A program made the translations under genes and the position numbers. The notes beneath the pieces were generated by a model. The model had not been told where the DNA came from and did not search any database. It worked only from the letters and a program-made list of their open reading frames with translations. This document shows, piece after piece, positions 18,139-22,164 of a stretch of DNA of 42,720 bases (its first letter is position 1; every line of letters begins with the position of its first letter). Source of the stretch: a virus; IMG/VR virus record IMGVR_UViG_3300031576_000121, positions 1 through 42,720 of that record; one strand, 5' to 3'.

Positions 18139-18726
18139 CTAAATTCCTCCCTTCTTATATTTTATTTCGCCCGACCGGACTCTCTCCACATCTTTATCGA
18201 AGAATCCCAACTGTTTCGGGTTCAGTCGGTCATGTTCATCCACTATGAATTGATTCACGTTCCGTCCTTTTGCTCTCCCTTCCGGCTGATGATAGCAAAA
18301 CGCTTCGTCTGGTATCGGTTCATTCATCGCGGCGCATTCGTCAATAACCGACTTAACTTCCGCATCCGATATGGTCTTCATCTGGTATCCGAGACAGATC
18401 GCATTATCAGCATCCCGCGACTTCGGAGCACTCGCTAAAAGAATCGCGGCCTTTGTAACAAACAACCTCCCCTCTCCCCGGTCTTTTTTCTCGTATCGGC
18501 GATATGCATCATACAGTGCGTTAACTTCCTGAGTTACGAGACCTGCTACATCCTCCGCTGAGATAATTGTCAATCGTTTCCAAACATACTCCGTATAATT
18601 CGAGTCATACATCTCAAGAGCAAAGTAACTCGCCAGTCTTGCGTCACCTTTCCTGATACACTTCTGTAAAGCAGAGACTACCAGCCTTAACTTGTAGCTC
18701 CTGCGTGTCATCATCTCATTATACAT
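18139..18726 (-). CDS. MgsA-C-like replication/recombination accessory protein
   Basis: The protein has 195 residues, with CGGAGG before ATG 18726. The segment LRLVVSALQKCIRKGDARLASYFALEM...VWKRLTIISAEDVAG (about residues 13-63) matches the C-terminal domain of MgsA/RarA/WRNIP1 clamp-loader-like ATPases. In those enzymes it promotes oligomerisation and DNA contact. The AAA+ ATPase part is absent, as is usual for the phage stand-alone versions. The C-terminal half (DADNAICLGYQMKTISDAEVKSVIDECAAMNEP) continues the fold. It may alter host fork-processing during phage replication; this is inferred. Confidence 0.75.
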   Translation of the reverse strand: MYNEMMTRRSYKLRLVVSALQKCIRKGDARLASYFALEMYDSNYTEYVWKRLTIISAEDVAGLVTQEVNALYDAYRRYEKKDRGEGRLFVTKAAILLASAPKSRDADNAICLGYQMKTISDAEVKSVIDECAAMNEPIPDEAFCYHQPEGRAKGRNVNQFIVDEHDRLNPKQLGFFDKDVERVRSGEIKYKKGGI

Positions 18727-19044
18727 TTAACCTCCGATCTGAAGTCTCTTACCGCCATCGCTCGTAATCCCGTTTGCTCTCAAGCTAATATTGTTCGCGG
18801 CTTCCTTTCCTGAATTAAATGCTGCTTGATCTGACACTGAGTTTCGAGTGTTTCGCGATCTTAAATGGATACCCTGATCTCTTAAGAAACGCTTCGCTTC
18901 CTTCGCAGCTTTCTCGTAAACTGGAGCAAGGATCAGCGCCTTGCCGGTCTCGTCTTTGATCTCGTTTTTCTTGGCCCGATCTATCTCCTCTTTCACTCTC
19001 TGACTAATCCGGTGACTAAATCCTAGTTTGAAGGAAGTAATCAT
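18727..19044 (-). CDS. C-terminal half of a split DUF2786 protein
   Basis: The 105 residues start at ATG 19044, overlapping the upstream TGA by four bases (ATGA). The text SFKLGFSHRISQRVKEEIDRAKK...LAPVYEKAAKEAKRFL...SDQAAFNSGKEAANNISL is typical of the C-terminal region (DUF7168-type) that normally follows DUF2786 in a single chain. The frame upstream of ATG stays open into the G-rich junction as GWGWKM. The break may be a real gene split kept by translational coupling, a missing base in a G run, or a frameshift site. Confidence 0.8.
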   Translation of the reverse strand: MITSFKLGFSHRISQRVKEEIDRAKKNEIKDETGKALILAPVYEKAAKEAKRFLRDQGIHLRSRNTRNSVSDQAAFNSGKEAANNISLRANGITSDGGKRLQIGG

Positions 19045-19454
19045 CTTCCACCCCCACCCTTGCAGGCGGTCTTAGAAAGATTTTGCGCTAGTGGGATGAT
19101 ATAACCCACAATTGCTTTGGTTACTGCAATGTTTGATGCTCGACCTACGAGAATATAGTGTTTCTTGGCTTTTCCTTCGACCAGTAAATTTTGAGAGTAG
19201 GTTTCAGTAAAGTATAACTTGGCAATTGAAGCCCAGATTATATCTTGCCAACTCTGCCGGTTAGTCGCTTCACATTTTTCACTCTCAACTTCTTCCGGGG
19301 TCTCTTGCGCTGTCTCCACATCGTCAAGAGTCAAATTATGCTTGGCGAGAATCTCCTGCGCCAGCCGCATTGCGGTTTGCATCTCTGCTTCCGTTCCACC
19401 GCGTTTTGCAAGAGCTAATACTTTTTGAAGTTTACTGAGTAAGTCTGGGTTCAT
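19041..19454 (-). CDS. N-terminal half of a split DUF2786 protein
   Basis: The protein has 137 residues from ATG 19454 behind TGTAGGAGGCC. Residues 1-45 (LLSKLQKVLALAKRGGTEAEMQTAMRLAQEILAKHNLT) are the DUF2786 helical domain. Residues 64-125 (WQDIIWASIAKLYF...KKHYILVGRASNIAVTKAIVGYIIPLAQ) are the beginning of the second domain. It ends in KGGGGR at a run of G, where the partner at 18727-19044 takes over in the -1 frame. DUF2786 proteins are frequent in phages; their role is unknown. Confidence 0.85.
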   Translation of the reverse strand: MNPDLLSKLQKVLALAKRGGTEAEMQTAMRLAQEILAKHNLTLDDVETAQETPEEVESEKCEATNRQSWQDIIWASIAKLYFTETYSQNLLVEGKAKKHYILVGRASNIAVTKAIVGYIIPLAQNLSKTACKGGGGR

Positions 19455-19526: not shown

Positions 19527-20279
19527 TTAACGGGTAACGCGAATAATTAACCGCTCGCAAGTCTCTCTCTGTTGAACTTCGAGAAACTTTCCCCACTTCC
19601 TTTTTAAGTACCGAATTTCCTCCAATTGCTGCCCTCGCTCACGATTTGCACTATTCCCGCCTTTAGTATCCCACCGTCGGAATATAAAGCCGTAACGATT
19701 ATCGCCCCAAACGAACCGGTCTTTCAGTAAAGTTTGAAGAGAATAGTCGACATCCTCACCCCTGCTTCTTAGAAAACTATCATACTTGAACTTTCTGCCT
19801 ATGAATCCGATTGCTCCTCCGAACCAAGTGCATAGATTGAATGGCTTGTGAGGAATGAACTTTCGAACATCGGCTGTTTGATGGAATCCGAATAAACTCG
19901 CCCCCGCTTCAGCCGCGCACAATGCTGTTCTTGCTACAATCGCTTTCACATCTGCCGGATCTCGGTAGCTTCGATATTTCATCCCCACTATGCTGATAAA
20001 ATTTTTCATATCATCGTCAATCATCACGACCACTTCGCTATCTATATTGTCCAGCATCCATTGACGTTTCGGCCCGATACCTTTCAGCGTGTCGGGATGT
20101 AGCAATAAATTATTGGAAACCTTTCGATAATCGTCTCGCTGAGATTCGGCCACACATACAATCGCCTCCGGGAAAAATTTCAACGTATGAGATCCGATCA
20201 TGTCGGCTCGGTTGTGACTCGGAATCGTAAATCGAATTTCACTCATTCCCTTGCAACCTCTGGATTGCTTTTCCCCCAT
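19527..20279 (-). CDS. GT-A glycosyltransferase of the TET-associated (TAGT) kind
   Basis: From ATG 20279 (AGGG six bases upstream) the protein has 250 residues; ATG 20246 gives 239. The fold starts IRFTIPSHNRADMI (16-29), followed by AIVCVAESQRDDY, IGPKRQWML and VVVMIDDDM with the Asp88-Asp90 metal site. A later acceptor region reads GFHQTADVRK...FGGAIGFIGRKF...SRGEDVDYSLQ. This layout resembles TET/JBP-associated glycosyltransferases, which add sugars to modified DNA bases. The adjacent ParB-like gene supports that, as the two occur together in phage modification loci. No oxidase or hydroxymethylase is seen here, so the substrate is unknown. Confidence 0.75.
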   Translation of the reverse strand: MGEKQSRGCKGMSEIRFTIPSHNRADMIGSHTLKFFPEAIVCVAESQRDDYRKVSNNLLLHPDTLKGIGPKRQWMLDNIDSEVVVMIDDDMKNFISIVGMKYRSYRDPADVKAIVARTALCAAEAGASLFGFHQTADVRKFIPHKPFNLCTWFGGAIGFIGRKFKYDSFLRSRGEDVDYSLQTLLKDRFVWGDNRYGFIFRRWDTKGGNSANRERGQQLEEIRYLKRKWGKFLEVQQRETCERLIIRVTR

Positions 20280-20919
20280 CGATAACCCTACCTAATCCGA
20301 TCTTATGCTTACCGTGAGGAATCGGAGTTTTCACTTTTTGGATTTTCAGTAAGTCGCAAGCCGCCAAAAAGTCCTGATCTGTTTTAAACATTAAAACAAT
20401 ATAATCATAATGCTCAAAAGCTTGGAGATCCATCTCTGGGATTTCTTTATCCTCCTCTGTCACTTCCGTTTGGTCGTCATCTGAGTCGGGATCCCCTAAC
20501 TTGTCACTATGCCGGGTTACCAGTTCTCTGAGCCATAAACTATCAGTCGTAAAATGTTCTGCTAGTCTCTCGTAACTTCCGGCATCGGCTCCGGCTGCTG
20601 CTCCCAGTGGGTCCAAGGTCGCCAGTGCCTTTCGTTCGTCCTCTTCGCTTAACTCGACATAAGTGACCGGCACCTCCGTTTCTCCTCGCTGGATTGCCAA
20701 GGCTACGCGCATGTGCCCGTCTACGATTCGTCCTGTGGTTTTGTTTACGATAATTTGAGCGATCCAGCCCAGCTCTTTCAAGGTGTCGTCCATTGCCTTA
20801 CTTTGCTGTTCTGGGTGGAGTCGCCAGTTGTCAGGATTAGGAACTAGCGTTTTAGGATCTACCCTGTCGCTGCCTACTATTCGATTCTGCCACTTCGTTT
20901 TATTAGTCATAACACTCAC
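20239..20919 (-). CDS. ParB/Srx-like domain protein beside the glycosyltransferase
   Basis: The protein has 226 residues from GTG 20919, or 223 from ATG 20910. Residues of about 18-90 carry the ParB-like fold: VDPKTLVPNPDNWRLHPEQQ, ELGWIAQIIVNKTTGRIVDGHMRVALAI and VPVTYVELSEEDE. Such domains are found in DNA-modification and nuclease contexts as well as partition. No partition ATPase is present here. A second domain at about 165-226 reads FEHYDYIVLMFKTDQDFLAACDLL and HKIGLGRVIDGG. It overlaps the glycosyltransferase gene by 41 bases, so the two are coupled. Confidence 0.8.
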   Translation of the reverse strand: MSVMTNKTKWQNRIVGSDRVDPKTLVPNPDNWRLHPEQQSKAMDDTLKELGWIAQIIVNKTTGRIVDGHMRVALAIQRGETEVPVTYVELSEEDERKALATLDPLGAAAGADAGSYERLAEHFTTDSLWLRELVTRHSDKLGDPDSDDDQTEVTEEDKEIPEMDLQAFEHYDYIVLMFKTDQDFLAACDLLKIQKVKTPIPHGKHKIGLGRVIDGGKAIQRLQGNE

Positions 20920-21416: not shown

Positions 21417-21955
21417 ACCTGACTCTCTGCTAGAAATGTTTTCAGTGTGTCTTTAACTTGAGCAAATGGTCGAATGATTATCTTGGTGAAGTCGCATTGA
21501 ATCCCTAGGCGTTGCCAAGTGATCCCGTATGCATTCACATAGGTATCATCCTCAATCAATCCAATTCCCCACGTTCTCCCTTTCTTCTTGTGCTTAGGTT
21601 CTAGCCAGTCCTTAATTGATGCGATCCCGTTATCCTCATCGAATCGCGCAGATCGTGGTGCTAGGTATGCAATAAGAAAGATAGGTTCAGTTCGGTAGTT
21701 GATAATCGAGGGGCATTCCTTATGCCAGTGAGTGGTAAGTGCTTCTAACTTAGCCGTCACATCAGGGTTGATGAAATTCATACCCGGAATTTTAGCGTTC
21801 TTCAATGATGGTATTTTGGCTAACTCTCCATATAGTCGGATCTCGATCAGGTCTGGATTCGGTAGCGCTCCTTTAACATACAGATCGAGCTTGCTCTGTT
21901 CATAGAATATTCTGAAAGCCTCTGATTTTTTTAGCCTCACTCCATTTCGAATCAT
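21395..21955 (-). CDS. RusA-like Holliday-junction resolvase
   Basis: The protein has 186 residues with AAAGGGA before ATG 21955, overlapping the regulator stop by four bases. The start IEIRLYGELAKIPSLKNAK resembles the RusA N-terminal strand. The catalytic region is ARFDEDNGIASIKDWLEP with Asp106, Asp108, Asn109 and Lys115, and IEDDTYV with Asp136/137. RusA enzymes cut four-way DNA junctions as dimers. This fits the recombination genes on the same strand. The chain is longer than E. coli RusA (about 120 residues), mainly by an N-terminal extension. Confidence 0.75.
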   Translation of the reverse strand: MIRNGVRLKKSEAFRIFYEQSKLDLYVKGALPNPDLIEIRLYGELAKIPSLKNAKIPGMNFINPDVTAKLEALTTHWHKECPSIINYRTEPIFLIAYLAPRSARFDEDNGIASIKDWLEPKHKKKGRTWGIGLIEDDTYVNAYGITWQRLGIQCDFTKIIIRPFAQVKDTLKTFLAESQVCHLGNQ

Positions 21956-22164
21956 AATCCCTTTTGAGTGAATAGATCTGGTCTGATTTTCTTCCGTGAC
22001 ACTCCCGTAATTTGTTCAATTTTAATCGCTACTAACGCGGGGCAGTTATGGTGAAGGTAGTAGGAGATTGCTGGCTGCGATACTCCTAATTTCTTTCCTA
22101 AATCTTTCTCGGATCCTTCTCTTTGAATTGCCTCTTCGATCCCTTTATTTTTGCCTCTCCTCAT
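21952..22164 (-). CDS. YdaS/Cro-like helix-turn-helix regulator
   Basis: The protein has 70 residues. Residues 10-66 read EEAIQREGSEKDLGKKLGVSQPAISYYLHHNCPALVAIKIEQITGVSRKKIRPDLF, the pattern of YdaS-type Cro-like proteins: a GS-x-LAKKLGVS helix-turn-helix and a C-terminal IExxTGVxxxxIRPDLF end. (The quoted region is split here by its features: GKKLGVSQPAISYYL is the recognition part.) It is the first gene of the leftward operon, next to the dyad-rich control region, and probably regulates its own promoter and others. Confidence 0.85.
   Translation of the reverse strand: MRRGKNKGIEEAIQREGSEKDLGKKLGVSQPAISYYLHHNCPALVAIKIEQITGVSRKKIRPDLFTQKGL

Follow-up and report, generated by a model that had tools for sequence, protein, structure and literature searches.

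How a phage could place sugars on its DNA while encoding no recognised enzyme that prepares a base to receive them is the question raised by a pair of adjoining genes in an IMG/VR contig (record IMGVR_UViG_3300031576_000121; 42,720 nucleotides, referred to here as the window). The two genes encode a ParB-like protein and a glycosyltransferase (GT) of the TAGT family. In a 2026 study, 288 of 753 phage genomes were found to have a solitary TAGT homologue, and these genes were proposed to encode novel transferases (PMC13216743). At least some of them may be explained by a cassette of the kind described below, in which a ParB-like protein and a dedicated small domain accompany the TAGT and no recognised hydroxylating enzyme is present. 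On the basis of sequence comparison, in which no known base-preparing enzyme was detected, the ParB-TAGT cassette is probably a new form of phage DNA glycosylation.

Layout of the Locus

The window appears to be a complete contig, with a direct terminal repeat of 149 bases, and a megablast comparison of the region with annotated phages gave no match. The reading frames of the initial annotation, the 226-residue size of the ParB-like protein and the IDDD motif at GT residues 87–90 were all recovered (Table 1). Both genes lie on the minus strand and overlap by 41 bases as annotated, a figure that holds for the annotated frames but not if the GT starts at Met12 (base 20246). The homologues and the model together point to Met12 as the probable true start, which gives a protein of 239 amino acids. 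GT residues 1–10 are poorly modelled (block pLDDT 47), and the DNA at Met12 reads ..AAGGGA|ATGAGTGA... Translation from this codon would reduce the overlap with the ParB-like gene to the 8 bases ATGAGTGA, the kind of overlap expected for coupled translation; the annotated overlap probably exceeds the real one.

Two reading frames, one DUF2786/DUF7168-like and one of 105 amino acids, separate the GT gene from a gene resembling the C-terminal domain of RarA/MgsA. Both are absent from the proteins common to the window and other carriers of the module, and the membership of each in the module is uncertain. Among the early genes, a YdaS/Cro-like regulator (21952-22164, minus strand; Pfam YdaS_toxin, 9e-12) raises the possibility of a temperate ancestry.

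Table 1. Coordinates of the cassette, its motifs and domains, and nearby genes in the window.
Feature	Position	Strand	Basis
TAGT-family GT-A glycosyltransferase, 250 aa as annotated	19527..20279	-	Pfam, PHROG, AlphaFold, Foldseek
ParB-like adaptor, 226 aa, GTG start (in-frame ATG at 20910)	20239..20919	-	PHROG, ParB/Spo0J profile, Foldseek
GT IDDD (I87-D90), metal/nucleotide-sugar motif	20010..20021	-	Conservation among homologues
GT E175-D176, putative catalytic-base motif	19752..19757	-	Conservation among homologues
GT G207-G208 motif	19656..19661	-	Conservation among homologues
GT invariant R213	19641-19643	-	Conservation among homologues
ParB/Srx N-terminal domain, residues ~11-100	20620..20889	-	pLDDT, conserved motifs
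Flexible linker of ParB-like protein, residues 146-163	20431..20484	-	pLDDT < 50
Small ParB C-terminal domain ("dom1"), residues 165-226, proposed GT docking	20242..20427	-	ParBs upstream of window-type TAGTs; model
RarA/MgsA C-terminal-domain-like protein, 195 aa, candidate third component	18139..18726	-	Pfam, structure profiles, co-occurrence
DUF2786/DUF7168-like ORF	19041..19454	-	Pfam DUF2786, 3.6e-10
105-aa ORF, no assigned function	18727..19044	-	ORF list

The Glycosyltransferase

The GT matches the Pfam TAGT family PF20691 with 47.3 bits against a gathering cut-off of 27.5 (E=3.1e-12), its residues 18–208 aligning to positions 4–205 of the 205 in the profile. It also matches PHROG 842, annotated as beta-glucosyl-HMC-alpha-glucosyltransferase (E=8e-16). 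The NCBIfam and PADLOC collections returned nothing specific to the GT. The single-chain AlphaFold model (pLDDT 91, pTM 0.88) resembles GT-A enzymes of the PDB in Foldseek with a TM of about 0.5, and viral TAGTs with about 0.7–0.8; a phage beta-glucosyl-HMC-alpha-glucosyltransferase is among these structural neighbours (TM 0.78). Across 40 non-redundant homologues, D88, D89, D90, G208 and R213 are present in all, G207 in 39, D176 in 38 and E175 in 35, while R72 is nearly invariant. The window protein keeps every one of these residues and thus combines a predicted GT-A fold with the DDD, ED and GG motifs of the TAGTs. The TAGT-type identity first proposed for this gene is therefore borne out by Pfam, PHROG and viral TAGT folds, and membership of the family with intact motifs is strongly supported by both sequence and model.

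The ParB-Like Protein

No Pfam family was matched by the ParB-like protein itself. It matches PHROG ParB-like families (6e-15), the N-terminus of the ParB-methyltransferase PHROG 498 (9e-19) and, by profile, solved ParB/Spo0J structures (6e-13). In PADLOC/NCBIfam, its match is to the N-terminal portion of a model for type II methyltransferases, and the best Foldseek match of its own model is ParB-CDP (6sdk). The ParB/Srx-like identity suggested at the outset is thus upheld by family, profile and fold.

The N-terminal domain is confidently modelled (block pLDDT 83–97 over residues 11–100) and carries two conserved motifs, N31-x-R33 (N31 in 34 and R33 in 33 of 35 sequences) and G68-[HN]-x-R71 (G68 in all 35, R71 in 31). 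These NxR and GxxR motifs, together with the fold, are those of the ParB/Srx superfamily and are consistent with putative nucleotide binding. A linker with pLDDT below 50, predicted to be disordered, leads to a small alpha/beta C-terminal domain modelled as strand-helix-strand-helix, in which Y173 and R211-V212 are conserved. When compared with partition ParBs, the protein has this small predicted C-terminus and an adjacent GT gene, and no ParA family occurs among the Pfam matches of the window.

Conservation of the Pair

When the GT served as a single-protein query against IMG/VR and genome contigs, no relative was confirmed, and a three-member GT alignment was therefore used instead. This recovered 82 more loci in the same collections, giving 84 with two annotated phages; they are partly redundant, 40 sequences being left at <75% identity. 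In 78 of the 84, the GT is preceded on its own strand by a ParB-like ORF, a count obtained with a query built on ParB-linked sequences. These ORFs nearly always match the profile into the C-terminal domain. Four of the six exceptions are cut at a contig start or end, L090 has a ParB recognised by eye, and only L063 truly lacks one, so that the association holds in 79 of 80 testable loci. The two genes usually overlap or abut, with a gap of 169–581 bases in nine loci.

Since the original seed was ParB-linked, a Pfam-seeded TAGT survey was run on 395 Bacteroidota genomes. It yielded three TAGT loci. In each, a ParB-like gene precedes the GT and overlaps it, as judged by eye for one of the three (L094). 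The pair is found in carriers associated with Streptococcus, Microbacterium, Bacteroidaceae and Chlorobiaceae. A TAGT relative occurs in 56 Microbacterium phage records, and the cultured carriers also include Streptococcus prophage Javan291. The coupling noted in the window is thus not a peculiarity of one genome but a general feature. Text searches of the literature for TAGT together with ParB, which did not take in Iyer 2013 and Burke 2021, returned no paper on the pairing. The identity of the two proteins and their conservation as a module are strongly supported by these comparisons. In seven loci (L015-L020 and L022; e.g., L017 6043-7353), an extra ORF of ~410-436 amino acids with two ParB domains lies directly upstream of the pair.

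A Small Domain in a Second TAGT Clade

A second clade comprises 80 loci related to a T-even-like TAGT. A small domain of ~65 amino acids (W.GMPEF...VHF...FA.LIGQ...KTK.IW.P) is present in 75 of these, and its placement varies. It forms the C-terminus of an upstream ParB in 33 loci, a stand-alone adjacent ORF in 25 and an N-terminal fusion to the TAGT in 12; in four it lies elsewhere in the locus, and in one a ParB-domain-TAGT fusion of 515 amino acids, confirmed by PHROGs, unites all three parts. Straboviridae such as Ah1 and POP12 also have this domain, fused to their TAGTs. A ParB is lacking in more than half of the clade. This varied placement suggests that the small domain is the dedicated partner of the TAGT and that the ParB is a swappable DNA-binding module.

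The C-terminal domain of the window ParB occupies the same position as the second-clade domain. The likeness is one of positional analogy only, as hhalign gives a probability of 6% over 25 columns between the two types. L076 and L077 have the two TAGT types in tandem, and the ParB that precedes each of them carries the corresponding type of C-terminal domain. A radical-SAM-like ORF, recognised by eye, was seen just upstream of a stand-alone small domain and TAGT (L110 1525-2616).

Other Enzymes Partnered by Related ParB Proteins

Relatives of the window ParB N-domain accompany several other enzymes. One is fused to an N6/N4 methyltransferase (L005, 4492-5760), and others adjoin Mom genes in two close relatives of that phage (L003, E 7.5e-45; L002, E 7.8e-51). 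A further relative stands beside a queuine-transferase/DpdA-like gene in L006. Methyltransferase, Mom and DpdA partners all modify DNA as a polymer and, by analogy, DNA is the likely substrate of the TAGT as judged from its context.

A published counterpart of such a pairing is the DpdA/DpdB 7-deazaguanine system, where DpdB is the ParB-like partner of DpdA (PMC12839542, PMC6392294). It resembles the window-type cassette, as does L006, in joining a ParB-superfamily protein to a DNA-modifying enzyme; it differs in that DpdA exchanges a base, whereas the window-type partner is a glycosyltransferase. ParBc proteins also accompany CmoX, with their function given as unknown (PMC12783734). The ParB-methyltransferase fusions, ParB-Mom pairs and ParB-CmoX contigs likewise place a related ParB N-domain beside or within a DNA modifier, but their chemistry is different, and the window-type ParB has a GT-associated C-terminal domain.

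The GT is almost always coupled to a ParB module that is found elsewhere beside DNA-modifying enzymes. This makes it improbable that the target is something other than DNA, e.g., a protein of the phage or host, a tRNA or a glycan of the cell envelope, with the ParB serving some other purpose. GT-A/GT2 enzymes do mostly act on glycans, and acceptors are not readable from sequence; set against this are the natural ParB-domain-TAGT fusion, the homology to DNA-acting T-even TAGTs, and surroundings in which UDP-glucose dehydrogenase was the sole glycan-pathway neighbour noticed.

The region downstream of the common ParB N-domain is exchanged among these closely related phages: L002 (6614-8162) has a Mom and one ParB C-terminus, L003 (9953-11228) a different Mom and another ParB C-terminus, and L005 the fused N6/N4 methyltransferase. 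In L006 (7794-12481), two adjoining ParB-like ORFs precede the queuine-transferase/DpdA-like gene, which was identified by profile; neighbours resembling QueD, QueE and FolE were recognised by eye only.

A RarA-C-Like Candidate Component

The RarA-C-like protein matches Pfam MgsA_C (4e-8) and RarA-family structures (1.8e-11 to 1.5e-7) and is 34–44% identical to its counterparts. All 10 records of the window-type GT subclade contain it, against 0 of 36 others (Fisher p 2.5e-10, without phylogenetic correction and with five of the ten belonging to one phage group). The carriers group together in a single clade of the GT tree (support 0.978). Four clade members initially appeared to lack the gene; L097 and L014 proved positive with more sequence, and L013 and L054 are fragments.

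At E<=1e-5, the ParB, the GT and the RarA-C-like protein are the only proteins common to the window and L008, L010, L012, L018 or L023. The GT and the RarA-C-like protein are common to the window and L017, L021 and L090; one further protein is common with L011, and structural genes are also common with L009. The two-gene unit originally described is real as a pair, but the unit appears to be larger, taking in the ParB C-terminal domain as a putative TAGT partner and the RarA-C-like gene.

The reading that this is merely a common phage gene was rejected as a sole explanation, because the gene is rare (65 of 50,697 phage records) and divides by clade as above. Of the 65, 56 come from Microbacterium phages, and the TAGT relative is likewise found in 56 Microbacterium records. 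The T4 alpha-GT is believed to act together with the replisome (PMC13216743), which makes a replication role for the RarA-C-like protein conceivable by analogy, if speculative. The family is not exclusive to the cassette, as it occurs with no nearby TAGT in a few phages, e.g., Arthrobacter phage KellEzio (L091 4929-5648).

Base-Preparing Enzymes and the Acceptor

The lack of an oxidase, hydroxymethylase or base kinase noted in the initial annotation was confirmed: Pfam families for Tet_JBP, thymidylate synthase, C5-methyltransferase and base kinases have no match among about 60 window ORFs. For the first two, the absence is general over 80 TAGT records. Neither Tet_JBP nor thymidylate synthase was matched in any of 30 window-type records (window included) or 50 second-clade records, with positive controls for the latter enzyme, and no C5-methyltransferase match was obtained in the 30 window-type records. 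The same kind of search detects TAGT in 23 of the 30 records and the TET of Mycobacterium phage Nigel (E=4e-8). Fragments may make up many of the IMG/VR records, but those of the window, Jayden and Javan291 are complete records.

The only clear TET case found is a TET-TAGT-methyltransferase operon in Nonlabens phage P12024L. Like the window-type cassette, this is a short phage operon with a TAGT family glycosyltransferase; in contrast to it, a PF12851 dioxygenase lies directly upstream of the TAGT and there is no ParB. The pairing with ParB therefore does not simply belong to the TET/JBP system, and the two contexts look like alternatives at the sequence level. The initial association of ParB-like domains with TET/JBP-type loci survives in part: the TAGT is coupled to a ParB, but the TET operon has none.

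To our knowledge, no TAGT acts on an unmodified base. In the biochemistry described for the family, a sugar is added onto an already glucosylated cytosine (PMC13216743), and T-even phages glycosylate hydroxymethylcytosine that is made in the nucleotide pool (PMC13216743, PMC13390438). The T-even beta-glucosyl-HMC-alpha-glucosyltransferase (T6, with a relative in Aeromonas phage Ah1) shares the TAGT fold, and the Straboviridae relatives of Ah1 and POP12 share the small domain, but fused at the TAGT N-terminus. The window-type records differ in having no thymidylate-synthase-family match and in carrying the partner domain on the ParB.

An ordinary two-step hypermodification, in which the GT acts on a hydroxyl handle that comes from the host or from a phage gene that escaped recognition, would agree with this biochemistry and with the existence of the TET-TAGT-methyltransferase operon. 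Several early ORFs of the window have no family assignment, and an unrecognised base-forming enzyme among them is possible. Such a handle is nonetheless considered rather unlikely. What unrelated carriers have in common with the window is mostly limited to the ParB, the GT and the RarA-C-like protein, so that no common handle enzyme is visible, and the searches for TET and thymidylate synthase (80 records) and C5-methyltransferase (30 records) were negative. The carriers span hosts as diverse as Streptococcus, Microbacterium, Bacteroidaceae and Chlorobiaceae, which makes a single host-made base unlikely as well.

It is put forward as a tentative possibility that ParB and TAGT, with the RarA-C-like protein in the subclade, are self-sufficient and transfer a sugar directly onto an unmodified base of duplex DNA. 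ParB would then provide the targeting for which a base modified beforehand is otherwise needed. Such a route to glycosylated phage DNA, if real, would involve two or three proteins and dispense with hydroxymethylated bases.

Proposed Mechanism and Sugar Donor

The window cassette is rather probably a ParB-targeted phage DNA glycosyltransferase. The ParB/Srx N-domain would bind DNA, probably under nucleotide control, while the C-terminal domain would dock the TAGT enzyme, which the overlapping gene would supply through coupled translation. The GT-A enzyme could then move a sugar from a nucleotide-sugar onto the bases of the phage DNA after replication, and this sugar may shield the DNA from host nucleases. 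In the window subclade, the RarA-C-like protein may assist, perhaps as a scaffold or in coupling to replication. We infer the docking, the role of the third protein and the protection of the DNA from the arrangement described above. If the reading is correct, the ParB would represent a natural swappable targeting module used across methylation, Mom, deazaguanine and sugar chemistry.

In Quhwahvirus, the GT is followed by a UDP-glucose/GDP-mannose dehydrogenase-like gene, and so it is in L012, which is otherwise unrelated; this order of genes hints at a uronic-acid donor in some carriers. A search of the window found no UDP-glucose dehydrogenase-like gene. In these two unrelated phages, the dehydrogenase-like gene lies directly after the GT (L012 1237-1986; L008 8717-9502).
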